In this document: in pieces, positions 3,612-60,389 of the stretch
How the letters are laid out: each line of letters begins with the position of its first letter
Numbering within the stretch: position 1 is the first letter of the stretch
Source of the DNA: Aquitalea aquatica
Lineage (GTDB): Bacteria > Pseudomonadota > Gammaproteobacteria > Burkholderiales > Chromobacteriaceae
Direction: 5' to 3'
Length of the DNA stretch: 64,000 nt
Assembly (NCBI RefSeq): GCF_013911085.1
Contig: NZ_JACERN010000017.1
Coordinates: 1-64,000 of the forward strand
Translations under genes and position numbers: made by a program
Notes under the pieces: generated by a model
The model's input: the letters and a program-made list of their open reading frames with translations, nothing else
Told to the model about the DNA's origin: nothing
Databases searched by the model: none

Positions 3612-5042
3612 TTACTCTCCTCTGCCATTAGCACGTGGAAGCCTGCCGGTTGGAGCTCCTGCCAAAGCAGCGCCAGACTTGGCATCCAGGGCTAAAAAGA
3701 AAAATACTGAGCACAGAGTCAACCCTCCCATCACCAAGAATGACCAGGAAAAGTCGCTACTGACCAGAGTCTGATGTCCTTGCAGAGTAGCAACCACCTG
3801 CAGCGCCATCGCCGCCATGGTCACTCCAAAACCGGCAGCCAACTGTTGCGCCACACTGGACAAGCTAGTGGCGTGGCTCATGCGGCTTTGCTCTACATCG
3901 GCAAAAGCAATGGCGTTCAAGCTGGTAAATTGTAGCGAGCGGGAAAATCCGCCGAGCACAAACACTACCAGCATCAGCACATGGGGCGTGTCCACCCGGA
4001 ACAAACCATACACCGCCATCGACAGCGCCACCAACACGGCATTCCAGCTCAGCACTTTTTTGAAACCAAAGCGCTCCAGTACTTTCGCCACAATGGTTTT
4101 CATGAAGATGGCCCCGATAGCAGTGGAACAGGTCAGCATGCCAGATTCGAATGGCGTATAGCCAAAACCAAGCTGCAACATCAGTGGCAGCAAGAATGGC
4201 GTGGCACCGACACCCATCCGGATGAGAAAGCCCCCCATTACACTGGCGTGAAATGTCGGCAAGCGTAACAAGGACAAATCCAGCAATGGATCAGCCACAC
4301 GGCGGTAATGCCACAGGTAAGCGAGCAGCAGCAGGGCTCCAAGTAAGCTGACCGCCAGCGACAGTTCCAGCGATAACATATGCTTGCCTTCCGTGGCCAA
4401 ACCCAGCATCAACATCGACAAGCCAATTCCGGTCAGGGCGAAGCCAGTTTTGTCCAAGGGTGGCAAATGCTCCTCTTTCAGGTTCTCGATATAACGCCCC
4501 GCCAACACCATGCCGAGAATCCCAATCGGAATGTTGATGAAGAAAATCCAGCGCCAGTGGAAGTAGGTTGTGATGAAACCACCTAGCGGAGGCCCGATCA
4601 CCGGACCGAGCAAAGCCGGAATGGTGAGGTAGCTCAGGGCTTTTACCAACTCCTCCTTACGGGTAGTGCGCAAAATGACCAGCCGGCCCACCGGCACCAT
4701 CATCGCCCCACCCATGCCCTGTATGAAACGTGCCAGCACAAACCCTTCCAGCGAGCCACTGAAACCGCACAGGACTGAACCCAGAATGAAAACGGCAATG
4801 GCCGAGCGGAATATCCGTCTGGCACCAAAGCGGTCTGCCATCCAGCCGCTAACAGGGATGAATACCGCCAGACTGACCAGATAAGATGTCAGTGCCAGTT
4901 TGAGTGCCACGGGATCGACCAGTAAATCGCGGGCGATGGCCGGCAAAGAGGTAGCGATCACGGTAGCGTCCATGTTTTCCATGAACAGGGCGGTGGCAAT
5001 GATAAGCGGCGTCAACATGCCGCTGGCCAATTTGAACTGCAT
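3612..5042 (-). CDS. MFS drug:proton antiporter, DHA2 family (MdtD-like)
   Basis: A 476-residue inner-membrane transporter with about 14 hydrophobic segments. It has the MFS motif A region (SGWMADRFGARRIF) and the DHA2 signature stretch RFIQGMGGAMMVPVGRL followed by GPVIGPPLGGF. Overall it resembles the E. coli MdtD/EmrB type, so export of drugs or metabolites driven by the proton gradient is the likely role. The substrate cannot be read from sequence. It is a single gene convergent with the tRNA cluster, with no adjacent membrane-fusion gene, which fits MdtD-like rather than EmrAB-like systems. Confidence 0.85.
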   Translation of the reverse strand: MQFKLASGMLTPLIIATALFMENMDATVIATSLPAIARDLLVDPVALKLALTSYLVSLAVFIPVSGWMADRFGARRIFRSAIAVFILGSVLCGFSGSLEGFVLARFIQGMGGAMMVPVGRLVILRTTRKEELVKALSYLTIPALLGPVIGPPLGGFITTYFHWRWIFFINIPIGILGMVLAGRYIENLKEEHLPPLDKTGFALTGIGLSMLMLGLATEGKHMLSLELSLAVSLLGALLLLAYLWHYRRVADPLLDLSLLRLPTFHASVMGGFLIRMGVGATPFLLPLMLQLGFGYTPFESGMLTCSTAIGAIFMKTIVAKVLERFGFKKVLSWNAVLVALSMAVYGLFRVDTPHVLMLVVFVLGGFSRSLQFTSLNAIAFADVEQSRMSHATSLSSVAQQLAAGFGVTMAAMALQVVATLQGHQTLVSSDFSWSFLVMGGLTLCSVFFFLALDAKSGAALAGAPTGRLPRANGRGE

Positions 5043-5149
5043 AGCATCAGTCTGCGAAGGAATGTGTCGTTCAGTCTAGCAGCTTGACCCATGCGGTCAG
5101 AACGGATCTGAGCAAGAAGTGTTAGCAGTTGTGAAAATGCGAGAGAAAA

Positions 5150-5176
5150 CAAAGGCAGCCCATTGGACTGCCTTTG
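5150..5176 (-). terminator. Terminator of the phosphoesterase gene
   Basis: CAAAGGCAG and CTGCCTTTG form a hairpin followed on the minus strand by TTTTC, about 28 bp after the stop codon at 5204. Confidence 0.75.
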
Positions 5177-5203
5177 TCATTCCGCATACGTCTACAGCAA
5201 GGT

Positions 5204-6820
5204 TTAATGCATACCCAGCTCCAGAGCATTGCTCAAGTCACCCATGACTGCTTCGCCATTAGCCTGCAAACTCGCATCACGCTCGATAACACCCGGCAGT
5301 GCAGGCAAATCGAAACGCCGGCTGATGAAACGCAGGATGGATGCCGTGTCATATTGGGTATGGTCGACAAAGCCCTTGCGTGCATAGGGCGAAATGATGA
5401 TGGCCGGAATGCGGCTGCCCGGCCCCCAGCGATCCCCCTTTGGAACCGGGGCATGGTCATAAATCCCGCCATTTTCATCGTAGGTGACCACGATCAGCAT
5501 GTTCTTCCATTGCGGGCTCTGTTGCAGCTTGGTAATCAGCTGGGCGATGTGCTCGTCACCATCCGCCACGCTGGCATAGCCAGCATGCTGGTTCAGATTG
5601 CCCTGAGGCTTGTAGAAAGCCACGGTCGGCAGCCTGCCTGCTTGGGCATCGCGCAAGAATTCAGCATCGAAATCCTTCAGGTGCGCTTGACGATAAGCTT
5701 GCTGTGTGAGCGGATCAAAGGCGGCGTAGTAGTTGAAAGGCTGGTGATGGGCCTGGAAATTAGGCTGTCCACCGTTGTAGATATTGCTGCGCTGAGCCAG
5801 CGAAGCATTCCAGCCGCCAGCATACCAGGCCCAGCTGATGCCCTTGGCTGTCAGGCGATCACCAATAGTGACGGCAGTCTGTGCTGGCAGCGTGGTGGCT
5901 TTGGTGGTATCGGCGTACTGGCTCGGCCCCTTGGCTCCCGGTGCATTACCACTTGGCTGATACAGGGGCTGCATGGTGTTGACTGCATAGAACATGCCCT
6001 GACTATCCTTGGGCGTCAGATTGCTGTCGTTCTTGTAGGTCGGCTTGCCATCCAGCACCGAAGCCTTGGCACCTGTAGCAGGTGTCAGACGCAGGAACTG
6101 TCCTTTGGCATCAGTATCGATGGCAGAAATCGAATCCTTGGCCGGGGAGTCTGCCGCATCGGCATTGGGATAGCTTGGCGCACAGGCACAGATCAGATAC
6201 TGGTGATTCAGAAAAGAGCCGCCAAACGCCCCCATGAAGAAGTTATCTGCCAGCGTGTACTGGCGTGCCAGCTTCCACAATGCCATCTTGCTGCCATCGT
6301 AGTAGCCCATGCTCAGGCCACCCGCATCCGAATAAGCCGCAAACTTGTCATTCTTGCCGCCATTGATCTGCATCTGGTTGTTATAGAAGCGATGCACCAG
6401 GTCGCGGGTAACCACATCCTGCCCCACCTGCACGCCGCTGCCATTTACACCTGCAGGATCATCAATCTGGAAGGGTTTATTGGGCCAGCCCATGGTTTGC
6501 GCCTGGGTGAGGGTGACATGCTGGCCGGCAGCCGTCAGACCGTTCCAGGTCGGCGGCAGCACCGGTAATACCGATCCATCAAAATCCTTCTGTGGCACAT
6601 AGCTGCCACGCGCGGCAGGATTGACACCCGGGATACCGTTGGCTCCCGGATATAGGCCATACAGGTTATCGAAGGCACGGTTTTCAGCGAAAATAACCAC
6701 AACATTCTGAATGACATCCAGCGAACCGCTGGTGACCGGAGCCTGAGGCATATTACTGGCACAGCCGGCAAGGGCTGCCGTCAGGGCCAGGGGAAGCAGA
6801 GCGGGTTTGCAGTTGTGCAT
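5204..6820 (-). CDS. Lipoprotein phosphoesterase (acid phosphatase / phospholipase C family)
   Basis: The 538-residue product belongs to the phosphoesterase family that includes AcpA-type acid phosphatases and bacterial phospholipases C (PF04185). Family hallmarks visible are the early metal-site stretch VVVIFAENRAFDNLYG, a central GGSFLNHQYL segment and the late VTYDENGGIYDHAP motif. The N-terminus is a lipoprotein signal peptide ending LAGC (Cys near residue 20), so it is probably membrane-anchored and faces the periplasm. The start at 6820 follows AAGGA; longer frames lack a signal peptide. It would release phosphate from phosphomonoesters or phospholipid head groups, but which one is not decidable from sequence. 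Confidence 0.85.
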   Translation of the reverse strand: MHNCKPALLPLALTAALAGCASNMPQAPVTSGSLDVIQNVVVIFAENRAFDNLYGLYPGANGIPGVNPAARGSYVPQKDFDGSVLPVLPPTWNGLTAAGQHVTLTQAQTMGWPNKPFQIDDPAGVNGSGVQVGQDVVTRDLVHRFYNNQMQINGGKNDKFAAYSDAGGLSMGYYDGSKMALWKLARQYTLADNFFMGAFGGSFLNHQYLICACAPSYPNADAADSPAKDSISAIDTDAKGQFLRLTPATGAKASVLDGKPTYKNDSNLTPKDSQGMFYAVNTMQPLYQPSGNAPGAKGPSQYADTTKATTLPAQTAVTIGDRLTAKGISWAWYAGGWNASLAQRSNIYNGGQPNFQAHHQPFNYYAAFDPLTQQAYRQAHLKDFDAEFLRDAQAGRLPTVAFYKPQGNLNQHAGYASVADGDEHIAQLITKLQQSPQWKNMLIVVTYDENGGIYDHAPVPKGDRWGPGSRIPAIIISPYARKGFVDHTQYDTASILRFISRRFDLPALPGVIERDASLQANGEAVMGDLSNALELGMH

Positions 6821-7010: not shown

Positions 7011-8276
7011 ATGTCGTCTTGCCCTCCCCACCCGTCAGCTTTGCACATACTCCTGCCGTGGCTGAGTTTGCTCTTGCTGTTGACGGCTTGCCATCAGGCA
7101 GCCGCGCCTGTGGCAGCCAACACGATGGCCACGCCTGCCCTTTATGCAGACAGCCATCCACTACCGGCGAAACAACTGGAAGCCTTGGGGCGGCAATTAT
7201 TTCATGAACCCGCGCTCTCGGCCTCCGGCAAACAATCCTGCGCCAGTTGCCACAGCCCGGCTCATGCTTACGGCCCAGCAGATGGCAAGCCAGCCCAGTT
7301 CGGTGGTGTGGATGGCCAACAGCAGGGTAACCGCGCCGTGCCCTCCTTGCGCTATCTGCAAAACGTACCGCCATTCAGCGAACATTTCCGCGATAACGAC
7401 GGCAATGACAGCGAAGATGCCGGGCCAACGGGTGGTTTTACCTGGGATGGTCGCGCCGCCAGCCTGCATGAGCAGGCCAGCCTGCCCTTGCTGTCCGCCA
7501 ATGAAATGGCCAATCGCAGCCCGGAGCAGGTAATTGCGCAACTGCAGGCCAGCCCGAGTGCCAGCGCATTTGCCGCCTTGTTTGGCCGAGATATTTTTCA
7601 GGACAAGCAGGCCGCATTCAGAAAACTGGTACTGGCGCTAGAGGTGTTCCAGCAAAGTCCGGCCGAGTTTTATCCCTATAGCAGCAAATACGATGCCTGG
7701 CTGCGCGGACAGGCCACACTGAGCAAGCTGGAATTACGTGGCTTGCAGGTCTTTAACGATCCGGCCAAGGGCAACTGTGCTGCCTGTCATCTCAGCCAGC
7801 GGCAGCCAGATGGCTCCTTTCCGGCCTTTAGTGATTTCGGACTGATCGCACTGGGCGTGCCACGTAACAGGGCATTGGCAGTCAATCGTGATCCTGCTTA
7901 TTTTGACATGGGCCTGTGCGGGCCACTGCGGCAGGACATGCAACGGGACGCGTATTGCGGGCTGTTCCGTACGCCTTCGCTACGCAATGTCGCCAGCCGC
8001 AAGGTGTTTTTCCACAATGGCGTATTCCATGATTTACGCCAGGTGCTGGAGTTTTACGCCAGCCGCGATAGCGATCCCGCCAAATGGTATGGACATGGAA
8101 AAACAGGCCAGCGCTTCAATGACCTGCCCAGCCCTTATCACGGCAATATCAATCAGGAAGCACCTTTTGGTGGGAAAGCAGGCTCACGGGCAGCATTCAA
8201 TGCCCGTGATATAGATGCCATGCTGGCTTTTCTGCAAACGCTGACTGATGCGGATGTACTACCCGCCAGCAGATGA
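7011..8276 (+). CDS. Di-haem cytochrome c peroxidase / MauG-family lipoprotein
   Basis: The 421-residue protein has two CxxCH haem c sites, CASCH (about residue 76) and CAACH (about residue 257), spaced as in bacterial di-haem cytochrome c peroxidases and MauG proteins. The leader ends in LLTAC, a lipobox, so the enzyme is likely lipid-anchored in the periplasm. It may reduce hydrogen peroxide with electrons from cytochromes, but MauG-like proteins can also oxidise protein or small-molecule substrates. No clear ribosome-binding site precedes the ATG at 7011, and no other start in this frame fits better. The gene is divergent from the phosphoesterase lipoprotein. Confidence 0.85.
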   Translation: MSSCPPHPSALHILLPWLSLLLLLTACHQAAAPVAANTMATPALYADSHPLPAKQLEALGRQLFHEPALSASGKQSCASCHSPAHAYGPADGKPAQFGGVDGQQQGNRAVPSLRYLQNVPPFSEHFRDNDGNDSEDAGPTGGFTWDGRAASLHEQASLPLLSANEMANRSPEQVIAQLQASPSASAFAALFGRDIFQDKQAAFRKLVLALEVFQQSPAEFYPYSSKYDAWLRGQATLSKLELRGLQVFNDPAKGNCAACHLSQRQPDGSFPAFSDFGLIALGVPRNRALAVNRDPAYFDMGLCGPLRQDMQRDAYCGLFRTPSLRNVASRKVFFHNGVFHDLRQVLEFYASRDSDPAKWYGHGKTGQRFNDLPSPYHGNINQEAPFGGKAGSRAAFNARDIDAMLAFLQTLTDADVLPASR

Positions 8277-55521: not shown

Positions 55522-55629
55522 TTAATGCTGCGCCTGGCGCTCTTCCTCATGCTCGCCCCACAGGGCATTCAGAATCCCCAGCGACACGGCAAAACCGATA
55601 CCCAATACCCATGCGAAATACCACATCAT
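55522..55629 (-). CDS. cydX: CydX, small subunit of cytochrome bd oxidase
   Basis: A 35-residue single-span protein beginning MMWYFAWVLGIGFAVSL and continuing LNALWGEHEEE before a short charged tail. This is the classic CydX/CbdX pattern (MWYF-WxLG start, then LNA and acidic residues), required for stable bd oxidase. Two ATG codons (55629 and 55626) are possible. The stop of the preceding NifX-like gene overlaps them (ATGATG), so translation is coupled. Confidence 0.93.
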   Translation of the reverse strand: MMWYFAWVLGIGFAVSLGILNALWGEHEEERQAQH

Positions 55630-55985
55630 GTTCTCCCGGTAATTGATTGACAGCGGCCCTTGCCTGGCAGGTAAGGTGTGGCACGACTGCCGGCTATGCA
55701 CAGCGCCGCCGCGGCCTGCAGCTCGCTTTCCATGGTGAGCGACAGCATGATGCCAAGCTGCCCCAGCCGCCGCGCCAGCGGCCGCCCGGCACTGGCTGCC
55801 AGCACGACATCCACCTCGCGCAGCGGGTGATCCGCCAAGTCACCACCCTGGCACAACAGCTGCGCCGGACTCAGCAGCAGGCTGTGCCAGCTGCCATCGG
55901 CACTATCCAGCAGCCAAAAATGCGTGCACTTGCCGGCGTGGCTGCTCACCGTGCGCCGGTTCTGGCTGGCAATGGCGATTTTCAT
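55626..55985 (-). CDS. NifX/FeMo-cofactor-domain protein in the cyd operon
   Basis: The 119-residue protein matches the dinitrogenase FeMo-cofactor biosynthesis domain (NifX/NifB C-terminal type): it opens MKIAIASQNRRTVSSHAGKC, has HFWLLDS, then VDVVLAASAGRPLARRLGQLGI and a final Gly/Cys segment. These small domains bind metal-sulfur cofactors or act as regulators, and many occur outside nitrogen fixation. Here it begins one base after the cydB stop and ends overlapping the cydX start, so it is made with the oxidase. No nif genes are in the window. Its role is unknown; cofactor delivery or sensing is only a hypothesis. Confidence 0.8.
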   Translation of the reverse strand: MKIAIASQNRRTVSSHAGKCTHFWLLDSADGSWHSLLLSPAQLLCQGGDLADHPLREVDVVLAASAGRPLARRLGQLGIMLSLTMESELQAAAALCIAGSRATPYLPGKGRCQSITGRT

Positions 55986-55986
55986 C

Positions 55987-57126
55987 TCAGTAGGCACTGT
56001 GATTGTTCTCCCGCACATAGGCTGCTGTCACCTTGCCGCCCATCACCTTATACGCCCAGCGGGTATAGAGGATGATCAGCGGCATGAAGATCAGCGTGGC
56101 CACCAGCATCAATTCAAGCGTGAGCTGGCTGGATACGCTGTCCCACACCGTCAGGCTGGAGGCCGGATGGCTGGACGAAGGCATCACAAAGGGGAACATG
56201 CTGATACCTGCCGTGCCGATGACACCCGCCAGCGCCAGGGCCGAGGCCCAGAAGGCGGCAAAACTGCGCCCGCCGCGCAAGAGCAGCATGGCGGCGATGC
56301 CGGCCAGATAGGCGCTCAGCGGCAACAGCATGGTGAGCGGCCAGCGCTGGTAATTGCCCAGCCAGGCTCCAGCGACGCGGCTGACGGTTTTGGCCAGCGG
56401 GTCGGGCAGTGCATCCGGCTGTACGGCCGAGGTAATCACATAGCCATCAATACCCAGCGCCAGCCAGATGCCGGCCAGGGTAAAGCCCCCGAGCCACAGC
56501 AGGCCCATCACCCTGACCCAGCGCTGTGCGCGCTGCTGGATCTCCCCTTCGGTGCGGTGTGCCAGATATACCCCGCCGTGAAAGGTGATCATGGCGCTGG
56601 AGACCACGCCACACAGCAAGGCAAAGGGGTTGAGCAGGCCCCAGAAGCTGCCGTCGTAAGTGGACAGCAGATTGTTGTCGAAATGAAACGGCACGCCTTG
56701 CAGCAGATTGCCAAAGGCCACGCCAAAGATCAGCGGCGGAATGGTGCCACCGACAAACAGGCCCCAGTCCCATACCGAGCGCCAGGTGGGGTTGTCTATC
56801 TTGCTGCGGTAGTCAAAGCCTACCGGGCGGAAAAACAGCGCCCACAACACCAGCAGCATGGCCCAGTAAAAACCGGAAAACGCCGTGGCATACACCAGCG
56901 GCCAGGCGGCGAAAATCGCCCCGCCACCGGTGATGAACCACACCTGGTTGCCATCCCAGTGCGGGCCGACGGTGTTGATCACCACCCGCCGTTCGGTATC
57001 GTCCCTGCCGACAAAGGGCAGCAACGTGCCCACGCCCATGTCGTGACCATCCATGATGGCAAAACCGACCAGCAATACGCCGACCAGCAACCACCAGATC
57101 ACCTTCAGACTTGCATAATCCAGCAT
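55987..57126 (-). CDS. cydB: Cytochrome bd oxidase subunit II
   Basis: CydB is the partner subunit of the bd quinol oxidase. The 379-residue protein has 8-9 membrane segments and the family start LKVIWWLLVGVLLVGFAIMDGHDMGVG, followed by VGPHWDGNQVWFITGGGAIFAAWP. Size equals E. coli CydB. It lies 9 bp after cydA. Confidence 0.96.
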   Translation of the reverse strand: MLDYASLKVIWWLLVGVLLVGFAIMDGHDMGVGTLLPFVGRDDTERRVVINTVGPHWDGNQVWFITGGGAIFAAWPLVYATAFSGFYWAMLLVLWALFFRPVGFDYRSKIDNPTWRSVWDWGLFVGGTIPPLIFGVAFGNLLQGVPFHFDNNLLSTYDGSFWGLLNPFALLCGVVSSAMITFHGGVYLAHRTEGEIQQRAQRWVRVMGLLWLGGFTLAGIWLALGIDGYVITSAVQPDALPDPLAKTVSRVAGAWLGNYQRWPLTMLLPLSAYLAGIAAMLLLRGGRSFAAFWASALALAGVIGTAGISMFPFVMPSSSHPASSLTVWDSVSSQLTLELMLVATLIFMPLIILYTRWAYKVMGGKVTAAYVRENNHSAY

Positions 57127-57135
57127 GATTGTTCC

Positions 57136-58686
57136 TTAGTGAGCGGTTTCATGGTCGTAGCGGCCCGTGCCCAGACTGCCCGGCCCCTGACGGGCAAAGC
57201 GCACCATCAGCATCATTTCCACCACCAGCAGCACGGTGTAGAAACCGACAAAACCGGCCAGCGAGCCGTACAGCGACTCCACCGACAGCGTGGACACCGA
57301 CAACCGGGTGGGCAATACGCCATAGATGGTCCACGGCTGGCGGCCGTATTCCGCCACCACCCAGCCCAGCTCGCAGGACAACCACGGCAGCGGCAAGCAC
57401 CACAAGGCCAGCTTGAGCAGTCGCGGACGGTGCTGGAAGTTGCCTTTCAGCGAAGCCCAGAAGGCCCAGCCAAACAGCAGCAGCATCGCCATGCCCATGC
57501 CCACCATCAGGCGGAAGGACCAGAACATCGGTGCCACCCGCGGAATGGTGTCGCGCGCGGCGGCGGCTATCATCTGCGGCGTGGCATGGGCCACGTCGGC
57601 GGTGTATTTCTTCAGCAGCAGGCCAAAGCCCAGATCCTTCTTGTGCTGCTCCAGCACTGCCAGTGCTGCGCTATTGCCGCGTTCACGCCGCACGGTTTCC
57701 AGCGCCTGTACCGCCAGCATGCCGGACTGAATGCGCAGTCGGTTCTGCGCCATGATTTCGTGAATGCCGGGGATTTCCTTGCTGAGCGAACGGGTGCCAA
57801 TCAGCCCCATCACCCAGGGAATGCTGAGCTGCCAGTCGTTCTCCATGCGTGTTTCATTGGGCCAGGCCAGCAGATTGAACGAGGCCGGTGCCGGCTCGGT
57901 ATGCCACATGGCCTCAATGGCGGCCAACTTGGTCTGCTGCGCCTCGCCCACGGTGTAGCCGGACTCGTCGCCCAGCACGATCACCGAGCAGATACTGGCA
58001 AAACCGAAGGCTGCGGCAATACGGAAGCTCTTGCGGGCGAATTCCACATTGCGCCCGCGCAGCAGATACCAGCTGGAAATCGACAGCACAAACATCGCCC
58101 CGGTGACATAACCCGCGCTCACCGTGTGCACGAACTTGGCCTGGGCATCCGGGTTAAGCAGCAGCGCGGCAAAGTCGGTCATTTCCATGCGCATGGTCTG
58201 GTAGCTGAACTCCGCACCCACCGGGTTCTGCATCCAGCCATTGGCAATCAATATCCACAGCGCCGACAGATTGGTGCCGATGGCCATCAAGATGGTCACC
58301 AGCAAGTGCTGCTTGCGCGACAGCCGCTCCCAGCCAAAAAAGAACAGGCCGATCATGGTGGATTCCAGGAAAAAGGCCATCAGCCCCTCGATGGCCAGCG
58401 GCGTGCCAAAGATGTCCCCCACATAGTGCGAGTAATAGGCCCAGTTGGTACCGAACTGGAATTCCATGGTGATGCCGGTGGTCACCCCCAGCGCGAAATT
58501 GATGCCGAACAGCTTGCCCCAGAAGCGGGTCATGTCCTGATAGACCTGCTTGCCGGTCATCAGCCATACCGACTCCATGATCACCAGCATCCACACCATG
58601 CCGATGGTCAGCGGCACGAACAGGAAGTGGTAAAGCGCCGTCACGGCGAACTGCAGTCGTGATAAATCGACGACGTTATCTAACAT
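57136..58686 (-). CDS. cydA: Cytochrome bd oxidase subunit I
   Basis: CydA carries haems b558, b595 and d and oxidises quinol while reducing O2. The 516-residue protein has the haem-ligand regions RLQFAVTALYHFLFVP (axial His), FVHTVSAGYVTGAMF (axial His) and FWSFRLMVGMGM (axial Met), a long Q-loop of the E. coli type, and the conserved WVVAEYGRQPWTIYG. The start at 58686 follows GGAG and overlaps the cydP stop by 11 nt. Confidence 0.97.
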   Translation of the reverse strand: MLDNVVDLSRLQFAVTALYHFLFVPLTIGMVWMLVIMESVWLMTGKQVYQDMTRFWGKLFGINFALGVTTGITMEFQFGTNWAYYSHYVGDIFGTPLAIEGLMAFFLESTMIGLFFFGWERLSRKQHLLVTILMAIGTNLSALWILIANGWMQNPVGAEFSYQTMRMEMTDFAALLLNPDAQAKFVHTVSAGYVTGAMFVLSISSWYLLRGRNVEFARKSFRIAAAFGFASICSVIVLGDESGYTVGEAQQTKLAAIEAMWHTEPAPASFNLLAWPNETRMENDWQLSIPWVMGLIGTRSLSKEIPGIHEIMAQNRLRIQSGMLAVQALETVRRERGNSAALAVLEQHKKDLGFGLLLKKYTADVAHATPQMIAAAARDTIPRVAPMFWSFRLMVGMGMAMLLLFGWAFWASLKGNFQHRPRLLKLALWCLPLPWLSCELGWVVAEYGRQPWTIYGVLPTRLSVSTLSVESLYGSLAGFVGFYTVLLVVEMMLMVRFARQGPGSLGTGRYDHETAH

Positions 58687-58867
58687 TGTTTTTCTCCAGG
58701 TGTTGGCTGGCCATCCCCGCCTCCCGCATGCCGTCGGCCATGGCGGCGGCATCGACATGGACGCGGTAGGGCGCGACCAAGGCTTTCCAGATGATCAGCA
58801 ACAGCACGATCTTGATGCCGATGATCCAGGCCAGTTCACGGCCCAGCTTGCGTGGTGGTTTTTTCAT
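58676..58867 (-). CDS. cydP: CydP, small membrane protein of the cytochrome bd operon
   Basis: The 63-residue protein has a basic N-terminus (MKKPPRKLGRELAWIIGIK), one membrane segment (about residues 12-30) and a C-terminal tail. It fits the small CydP subunit found immediately upstream of cydA in several betaproteobacteria. The start at 58867 follows GAGAG, and the stop overlaps cydA. It is the first gene after the sigma-54-like promoter. Confidence 0.82.
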   Translation of the reverse strand: MKKPPRKLGRELAWIIGIKIVLLLIIWKALVAPYRVHVDAAAMADGMREAGMASQHLEKNNVR

Positions 58868-58958: not shown

Positions 58959-58974
58959 TGCAAATGCCATGCCA
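58959..58974 (-). promoter_or_regulatory. Sigma-54 (-24/-12) promoter of the cyd operon
   Basis: On the minus strand TGGCATGGCATTTGCA matches the sigma-54 consensus TGGCAC-N5-TTGCW, with GG and GC 10 bp apart. It is oriented toward cydP-cydA-cydB-NifX-like-cydX and lies 92 bp before the cydP start. The neighbouring activator gene with a GAFTGA motif supports it. Confidence 0.8.
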
Positions 58975-59022: not shown

Positions 59023-59040
59023 CATGTCATTTTTGACATG
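59023..59040. promoter_or_regulatory. Palindrome, likely upstream activator site of the sigma-54 regulator
   Basis: CATGTCATTTTTGACATG has perfect 7-bp arms around TTTT. It lies about 65 bp upstream of the -24/-12 promoter and 15 bp before the activator gene start, suiting both activation of cyd and self-control. Confidence 0.65.
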
Positions 59041-59054
59041 TCAGCAATCGCACT

Positions 59055-60389
59055 ATGTCACCCCTGTCGAATGAAGCCAGCCTGGACACCATCAGCCGCA
59101 TGCTGGACGAGCTGAGCGAACCGCGCATTGTCATTACCGAGCACTTTGAAATCCTGCATGCCAACCAGGCCTACCGCGCTGCCTACGGGGCCGAAGCGCT
59201 GGGCCGCCACTGCTACGAGGTATCACACGGCTATCAACGCCCTTGCGATGAAGAAGGCGAGTCCTGCCCGCTGCGGATGACGCTGGCCAGCGGCCAGCCG
59301 GAACGGGTGCTGCACATTCACCGCACGGCGCATGGCGACGAGCATGTGGATGTGGAGCTGATGCCGCTGGCGGATATCAGCGGCCATCGCCACCTGTTCA
59401 TTGAAAAGATGAAGCCGCTGCAGCTGGCCAGCAGCCAGGCGGCGGCCGACAAGATGGTGGGACGCAGTGCGGTTTTTCGCCGCATGCTATTGCTGGCGCA
59501 AAGAGCCGCCCCTTCGCGCGCCGCCGTGCTGCTGATCGGCGAATCCGGCACCGGCAAGGAAGGATTGGCACGTGCCATCCACGACAGCGGCGGTGCCGCG
59601 CAACGGCCGTTTATTGCGGTGGATTGCGCCAGCCTGAGTGAAACCCTGCTGGAAAGCGAGCTGTTCGGCTATGAGAAAGGGGCGTTTACCGGGGCCAACC
59701 AGCGCAAGCAGGGCCTGGTGGAAGCCGCCCATGGCGGCACGCTGTTTCTGGATGAGATTGGCGACCTGCCGCTGTCACAGCAGGTCAAGCTATTACGCTT
59801 ACTGGAGTCCGGCAGCTTTCGCCGTGTGGGGGGTATCAACAGTATTCCCGCCAGCTTTCGGCTGATTGCAGCGACTCACCGCAATCTGGCAGCCATGGTC
59901 GAGGCTGGCAGCTTCCGCGCCGATCTCTACTACCGGCTAGCCGTGTTTCCCATTCGCCTCCCTCCCCTGCGCGAACGGCGCGAAGACATTCCGCTGCTGG
60001 CGGCCTCGCTGCTGGAACGGGTCGCCCCCGGGCGCAGGTTGCAACTGGAGGCCGCAGCGCTGCAATGGCTGTTGCAACAGCCATTCAACGGCAATATCCG
60101 CGAGCTGCGCAATCTGCTGGAGCGCGCCAGCCTGCTCAGCGACGGCGATGTCATCACGCTGGACAACCTTTGCGCCGATGAATGGTGCAGCACGCCAGCC
60201 CCCGCGGCGGCCATGCCACACTTCCACTGCGGCCTGCTGCCGCTGGAGCAACTGGAAAGCCAGTACCTGCAATGGGCCGTCGAACAGAGTGGGCTGAGCC
60301 GCCAGCAATTGGCCTCGGCACTGCAACTGACCGAGCGCACGCTCTACCGCCGGCTGGCCGGCAGACAAAAGAAAGCCCCTGCAGCTTAG
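59055..60389 (+). CDS. Sigma-54-dependent activator with cysteine-bearing PAS domain, divergent from cyd
   Basis: The 444-residue protein has an N-terminal PAS domain (about residues 10-115) with Cys53, Cys64 and Cys71 in the pattern [12 protein letters not shown]...CPL, a AAA+ domain (about 130-360; Walker [23 protein letters not shown], Walker [10 protein letters not shown]) and a Fis-type HTH (about 405-440, [21 protein letters not shown]). GAFTGA is the sigma-54 contact loop. The three cysteines suggest redox, metal or cluster sensing. It is divergent from the sigma-54-promoted cyd operon, so that is the likely target. Confidence 0.88.

Follow-up and report, generated by a model that had tools for sequence, protein, structure and literature searches.

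Why does an operon for a cytochrome bd oxidase carry a NifX-like gene? The question arises in Aquitalea aquatica, in a stretch of 64,000 nucleotides (contig NZ_JACERN010000017.1, positions 1 to 64,000; hereafter, the window), where cydP, cydA, cydB, a NifX-like gene and cydX follow one another on the minus strand. The initial annotation recorded this arrangement and supposed that the protein might deliver or sense a metal or haem-related cofactor, or control assembly of the oxidase. The reading favoured here, with a probability of about 0.45, is that the protein binds metal-sulfur species as an accessory of a sulfide response of the FisR type and is made along with a sulfide-resistant bd oxidase. 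The evidence, all of it drawn from sequence, consists of gene order, recurrent linkage of FisR, cyd and NifX-like genes, promoter-like sites, conserved residues and purifying selection. It points to a part in coping with hydrogen sulfide and away from one in oxidase construction, and the pairing recurs in other bacterial families.

The operon itself is well defined by its reading frames and profile matches. It begins with cydP, for a small bd oxidase subunit (58676..58867; NCBIfam small_CydP NF045611, 37 bits, cut-off 29.6), followed by cydA (57136..58686; PF01654, 578 bits), cydB (55987..57126; PF02322, and TIGR00203 with 513.5 bits), the NifX-like gene (55626..55985; 119 residues) and cydX (55522..55629; TIGR02106 with 53.8 bits, and PF08173, both above cut-off). 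CydA, CydB and CydX are thus present in the order of a cydABX operon. The NifX-like ATG lies 1 nucleotide past the cydB stop, and its TGA falls within the ATGATG at the cydX start; both the gene order and this tight coupling are as first described. The gene is also intact, as had been said, but its start is less certain. An in-frame GTG at 55997, which is four codons upstream of the ATG and would make the gene overlap the last codons of cydB, may be the real start, since one relative (G007) has ATC at the ATG position. When four Aquitalea copies are compared in pairs, the ratio of nonsynonymous to synonymous substitution rates (dN/dS) is 0.15-0.46 across the six comparisons, three of which, those involving G009, have dS near saturation (1.9-2.4); for cydB the ratio is 0.05-0.11. 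The NifX-like gene is under purifying selection and shows no decay. A 912-codon open frame on the plus strand (55924-58662), antisense to cydB and cydA, is most likely an ordinary shadow open reading frame (ORF) of GC-rich coding sequence.

Is the gene needed to build the oxidase? This cydB is found in nine of ten Aquitalea genomes (G005 is without it). In four of the nine, the source genome (G000, 4.46 Mb) and G002, G007 and G009, the NifX-like gene lies between cydB and cydX; the window's copy shares 97% identity with that of Aquitalea palustris and 82% with that of A. magnusonii, whose strain DSM 25134 carries the gene (L011). In the other five (G001, G003, G004, G006, G008), cydX follows within about 16 nucleotides of the cydB stop with no NifX-like gene between, and a profile search found no copy elsewhere in these genomes, of which G008 has a completeness of just 61%. 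Since their cydB is 91-94% identical, the oxidase can be built without the gene. The converse case is G060 (100% complete), where a NifX-like gene adjoins a FisR homologue and no CydB match is present at E <= 1e-20. With the oxidase lacking the gene in sister species, and the gene beside FisR lacking the oxidase, the two are separable. The proposed control of assembly or carriage of a haem-related cofactor is not supported by this distribution, on which an assembly factor is rejected as the main reading. Absence from close relatives, named at the outset as what would refute a part in the oxidase, is thus partly the case; the claim that the gene is built into the cyd operon stands, and it recurs outside the genus.

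What the gene keeps company with was surveyed in 399 genomes of the order and 398 of the phylum. The order sample holds 33 NifX-like matches in 29 genomes, 124 CydB matches (a few partial) in 117, and 96 FisR matches in 70 (E <= 1e-90, a threshold that may admit other activators). A NifX-like gene accompanies, at a distance of up to 3 kb, 11 of the 24 CydB matches that have a FisR homologue within 5 kb, as against 2 of the 100 that do not (Fisher p 9e-8); the cases are not independent, because close kin are counted singly. Twelve of the 33 NifX-like matches are near both cydB and FisR, two near cydB only, five near FisR only and 14 near neither, so that 17 have a FisR homologue within 5 kb. 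Of the five genomes with FisR only, four (G060, G122, G162, G249) have no CydB match at E <= 1e-60 and G214 has one elsewhere; in seven loci FisR and the NifX-like gene occur without cyd genes. None of five fully read cyd operons without FisR (L059-L063) has the NifX-like gene. One of these, on contig C23 of the source genome (L059), is a second cydABX operon, with a CydB 66% identical and, over the 12 kb read, neither a NifX-like gene nor FisR. In the wider family, G018 and G031 have the gene, and G025 and G034 have a FisR-linked cyd operon lacking it. In the phylum sample NifX-like matches occur in 18 of the 398 genomes; among 17 neighbourhoods from 16 genomes outside the order, cydA or cydB was found in none and a FisR-like gene in one (L136). 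The link of the NifX-like gene to FisR is, as read from these gene neighbourhoods, well supported, and the function of the protein is very probably tied to a FisR-type regulator.

In the window that regulator is a sigma54 activator encoded on the plus strand (59055..60389), divergent from the cyd operon and unmentioned in the initial annotation; it is the better key to what the NifX-like protein does. Its domains are an N-terminal PAS with C53-x10-C64-x6-C71, an AAA+ domain and a Fis-type helix-turn-helix (Pfam: Sigma54_activat 7.6e-66, PAS_4 6e-8, HTH_8 6.8e-5). The C-x10-C-x6-C pattern is kept in all 25 aligned homologues adjoining cyd or NifX-like genes (G018 was omitted, its frames being broken), and one of them, G447, lacks the GAFTGA motif. 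The third cysteine of FisR we take to be at position 71. The activator is thus a sigma54 AAA+ protein with cysteines at 53, 64 and 71, as in FisR, a likeness that follows reported residue numbers and not an alignment with Cupriavidus FisR. FisR has three conserved cysteines (PMC9774590), and in Cupriavidus pinatubonensis a tetrasulfide forms between Cys53 and Cys64 after reaction with sulfane sulfur (PMC9495516; this and the other papers are cited from excerpts).

Between the activator and cydP lie two candidate sites, both on the minus strand. The palindrome TGACATGTCAAAAATGACATG (59023..59043), a putative activator site, has one exact copy in the source genome. A second site there was sought and rejected: the next best palindrome, on contig C15 with two mismatches, lies inside an open frame, and no sigma54-like site is present there. 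The candidate sigma54 -24/-12 promoter TGGCATGGCATTTGCA (58959..58974) is the only exact match in the window. Taken alone it is weak evidence, since 16 of 100 window shuffles hold such a site (mean 0.16). Across loci, a sigma54-like site occurs in 24 of 26 FisR-linked intergenic regions where single-base shuffles lead one to expect 0.08, with a pattern made after viewing the loci and with gene starts that are approximate for several; the two exceptions are G031, one base off, and G447. The source genome has rpoN.

The identity of the NifX-like protein rests on family profiles. Its PF02579 (Nitro_FeMo-Co) score is 22.2 bits (E 1.7e-4), below the gathering cut-off of 26.3, and it is the only PF02579-like match in its genome at E <= 0.001. 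In an alignment of 54 relatives (A2), 52 members, the window protein among them, match PF02579 at E <= 0.01. Searched against the PDB, the A2 profile matches NifX (9ian, 4.7e-10) and the NafY core (1p90, 7.5e-10), as well as 1t3v and MTH1175 (1eo1); a narrower alignment of 11 rows (A1) matches 1p90 (6e-6), 1eo1 (2e-5) and 2yx6 (2e-4). The protein is thus homologous to PF02579, as its profiles indicate, though not filed as a member, and the FeMo-cofactor-domain identity given to it holds as homology and not as membership. It is not a NifX equivalog (TIGR02663: 11.8 bits, E 0.25, cut-off 112 bits). A NifX-type fold is predicted by these profiles; the AlphaFold model has a predicted local distance difference test (pLDDT) score of 85.6 and a predicted template-modelling (pTM) score of 0.78, with a confidently predicted core (at least 90 pLDDT for 88 of the 119 residues) and values below 50 for residues 103-119.

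The residues of note are H16, C20 and H53-P54-L55. H16 is invariant in the 11 A1 rows, conserved in at least 90% of the 54 A2 rows, and aligned to the His of GHFGSC in the NafY core. By this alignment it is the homologue of the His that binds the cluster in NafY and NifX: H121 of NafY is the key ligand of the iron-molybdenum cofactor (FeMo-co; PMC8496260), and its counterpart in NifX, H35, is the ligand of the NifB cofactor (PMC13128457). Many NifX-like proteins have long His-rich or His/Cys-rich C-terminal tails (L012 6001-6474, L013 6001-6453 and others), and the Aquitalea copies do not. The window protein's own tail is short, 17 residues, and by eye unlike the Gly/Arg-rich cationic tail of IssA.

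How might such a unit work? We infer sulfide induction, control by FisR, the bound ligand and its purpose, with IssA as the precedent. The activator would sense sulfane sulfur via its three PAS cysteines, bind the upstream palindrome and drive the sigma54 promoter of cydPAB-(NifX-like)-cydX. The bd oxidase would then sustain quinol oxidation while sulfide inhibits haem-copper oxidases. In Acinetobacter baumannii cydAB is sulfide-induced, and bd is called refractory to H2S (PMC7315123). The NifX-like protein would be a co-expressed accessory, neither oxidase subunit nor assembly factor, binding metal-sulfur species formed on sulfide entry, most likely iron sulfide clusters or thioferrate and possibly other thiometallates. 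H16 would make the contact, possibly aided by H53 and, in many relatives, by the His/Cys-rich tail, and the purpose would be to buffer Fe-S or pass it on. Its family relative IssA responds to sulfide and stores thioferrate (PMC5524996). From the conservation and alignment of H16, the company of FisR and the IssA precedent, we take the protein to buffer or carry metal-sulfur species as part of the sulfide response; as judged by its residues, the case that it binds metal-sulfur species at all is evenly balanced. The earlier idea of a protein that delivers or senses a metal cofactor is still plausible, H16 aligning with the cluster-binding His of NafY. A broader proposal is more doubtful: the FisR-linked NifX-like proteins might constitute, in respiring bacteria, a new class of metal-sulfur carriers for sulfide stress that parallels archaeal IssA, capturing iron sulfide or a thiometallate through a single His and returning it to Fe-S proteins, co-made with the sulfide-resistant oxidase and, in some species, with SQR-like enzymes.

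The recurrent company of the gene is FisR, quinol oxidation (bd, or Rieske in L107) and, in single loci, sulfur-type genes. Neighbour ORF lists, full of antisense shadow ORFs, were used as leads only. The search for a NifX-like gene between cydB and cydX, proposed at the outset, found that order in ten genomes (G000, G002, G007, G009, G018, G031, G167, G236, G265, G294). Elsewhere, copies flank cydX on both sides (G330), the gene follows cydX and directly precedes an SQR-like gene (G114, locus L112), or it stands ahead of cydA (G183, G187), making four places within the operon; in G200 a contig end holds only the NifX-like gene and cydX. The L112 SQR-like protein has type III SQR as its best NCBIfam model (107 bits, cut-off 525). 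In L115 a DUF6858 gene and an MBL-fold gene follow cydX, and L107 has a Rieske protein above its cut-off. DUF6858-type genes are near the NifX-like gene in L106, L107, L115 and L139 by similarity clustering, PF21651 being confirmed in L106 and L115 only. In L106 two NifX-like copies (4949-5302, 5448-5825) lie either side of cydX in one operon and are apart on the tree. L056 has a ferredoxin-like gene, named by eye, ahead of the NifX-like gene. In L014, from a filamentous cyanobacterium, the gene has neighbours that, judged by eye, are Rieske-, rhodanese- and transporter-like, and another whose SQR-like match is below cut-off. Contig C5 of the source genome has a Blh-like dioxygenase match of 401.8 bits, below the 625-bit cut-off, with a YeeE/YedE-like frame (by eye) at the same locus; a threshold so loose also admits matches in 13 of 14 control genomes, none of them above cut-off.

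On a tree of 52 sequences, from which three distant rows were dropped and whose base is weakly supported, the cyd label needs four changes, and supported branches force at least three of these; equally few changes sufficed in 22 of 500 label shuffles. The history may instead have been a single early gain followed by losses. In L105 a degenerate cydP-like stretch (7217-7287; two abutting pieces, E 0.09 and 0.43) lies between the FisR homologue and the NifX-like gene, a hint, with weak E-values, that this locus lost cyd but retained the NifX-like gene. Twelve sequences (L119, L121-L124, L126-L128, L141-L144) cluster with support of 92/84, just under the star threshold, and look like a separate lineage because several have mod-like neighbours (by eye, among the frames listed).

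Several observations weigh against the sulfide-response reading. Thirteen of the 24 FisR-adjacent CydB matches have no NifX-like neighbour, the 14 NifX-like matches near neither cydB nor FisR fall outside the proposed unit, and the cyd-linked copies of G183 and G187 have no intact FisR nearby among the neighbour frames listed (G187 has a fragment). The window protein falls below the PF02579 threshold and has no His-rich tail. C20 is absent from some cyd-linked copies (L112, L115, L117), and NafY C125, aligned with it, is dispensable for FeMo-co binding (PMC8496260). The match to Cupriavidus FisR is one of reported residue numbers. In the excerpt of the A. baumannii study, FisR is without the sensing cysteines, its sensing mode is called unclear, and cydAB sits outside the FisR operon (PMC7315123). 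The sulfur-type neighbours are also ambiguous: the L115 MBL-fold protein scores 103 bits as Blh and 100 as hydroxyacylglutathione hydrolase, both far below cut-off, and the L112 SQR-like query, in a search that had no positive control, had no match in the source genome.

Among the rivals, a thiomolybdate or copper-sulfide binder survives best, though it is unlikely. ORP carries a Mo-Cu cluster, and a protein of its kind would sequester Mo or Cu thiometallates under sulfide while the copper-free bd oxidase respires. The A2 profile does match ORP (2wfb, 9.5e-5), and at E <= 0.01 the MrpORP model is matched by 40 of the 54 A2 members, as against 32 for NifX and 23 for NifB. The His/Cys-rich tails of many members would suit this role, and the sigma54 activator DVU2106 drives the orp operons (PMC3897727). 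The window protein itself, however, has no NCBIfam match at E <= 0.01; it scores 11.8 bits with MrpORP (NF041136, cut-off 450), a model built on a two-domain protein.

A partner or feedback regulator of FisR, itself a FisR-driven product that would tune the activator by binding to it or to its persulfide, is improbable. It would account for the FisR homologue near 17 of the 33 matches, and for L013 and L113, where the NifX-like gene is the first behind a sigma54-like site and cyd genes are absent. However, most of the 96 FisR matches in the order sample have no NifX-like gene within 5 kb, G183 has the gene without FisR nearby, and the characterised relatives are cluster carriers. About as improbable is an assembly or cofactor factor, which would bring CydAB its iron, haem d or some other cofactor, or govern how the oxidase is assembled. 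The position between cydB and cydX in ten genomes, overlapping cydX in Aquitalea, favours it, but five Aquitalea oxidases and the second bd operon of the source genome do without the gene, and G060 has it with FisR and no CydB match.

It is quite improbable that the activator is instead a redox sensor holding an Fe-S cluster by its cysteines, the operon answering oxygen or redox state and the NifX-like protein serving Fe-S upkeep. PAS-domain cysteines can also bind a cluster, the cysteines of OrpR reportedly hold one for redox sensing, and bd oxidases are commonly low-oxygen enzymes; against this, C53 and C64 are numbered as in FisR, and SQR-like and other sulfur-type neighbours occur in L112, L115 and L106. 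Least likely is a passenger gene with a function unrelated to the operon, which would suit the patchy distribution, fast divergence and sub-threshold Pfam score but not the purifying selection or the recurrent linkage in four arrangements.

If the sulfide-response reading is true, a bd oxidase is under direct control of a persulfide sensor, a NifX-family protein has a job outside nitrogenase, and terminal-oxidase choice, sulfide tolerance and metal-sulfur handling are joined in one operon. That bd oxidases can be induced by sulfide is already known (PMC7315123); here a candidate regulator is adjacent, which makes the link testable. No operon joining a NifX-like gene, bd oxidase and FisR is described in the titles and abstract openings that searches on these subjects listed from open-licence literature, a body that largely leaves out subscription papers.

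The locus thus combines features of several known systems. Like canonical cydABX operons it has cydA-cydB-cydX, with cydP, but it adds the NifX-like gene and a divergent FisR-type activator. With NifX and NafY the protein shares a superfamily, by profile, and the conserved His of the HxG motif, although its NifX score of 11.8 bits is below the cut-off of 112 bits and its gene sits in a cyd operon. As in the ORP/MrpORP systems of Desulfovibrio, a NifX-like protein is under or near a sigma54 activator; unlike theirs, the protein of the window fails to match the MrpORP model. IssA of Pyrococcus furiosus shares the IPR003731/PF02579-type domain and the sulfide link, but it is archaeal with a Gly/Arg-rich tail, whereas window-type proteins have other tails and adjoin a terminal oxidase. 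The FisR regulons of C. pinatubonensis and A. baumannii share the divergent sigma54 activator and the sigma54-like promoter before the target operon, and the cysteines of the window activator are at the positions reported for Cupriavidus FisR. However, while FisR is known to target genes of sulfide oxidation (in A. baumannii pdo, sqr and tauE; PMC7315123), the candidate target here is a bd operon with a NifX-like gene.

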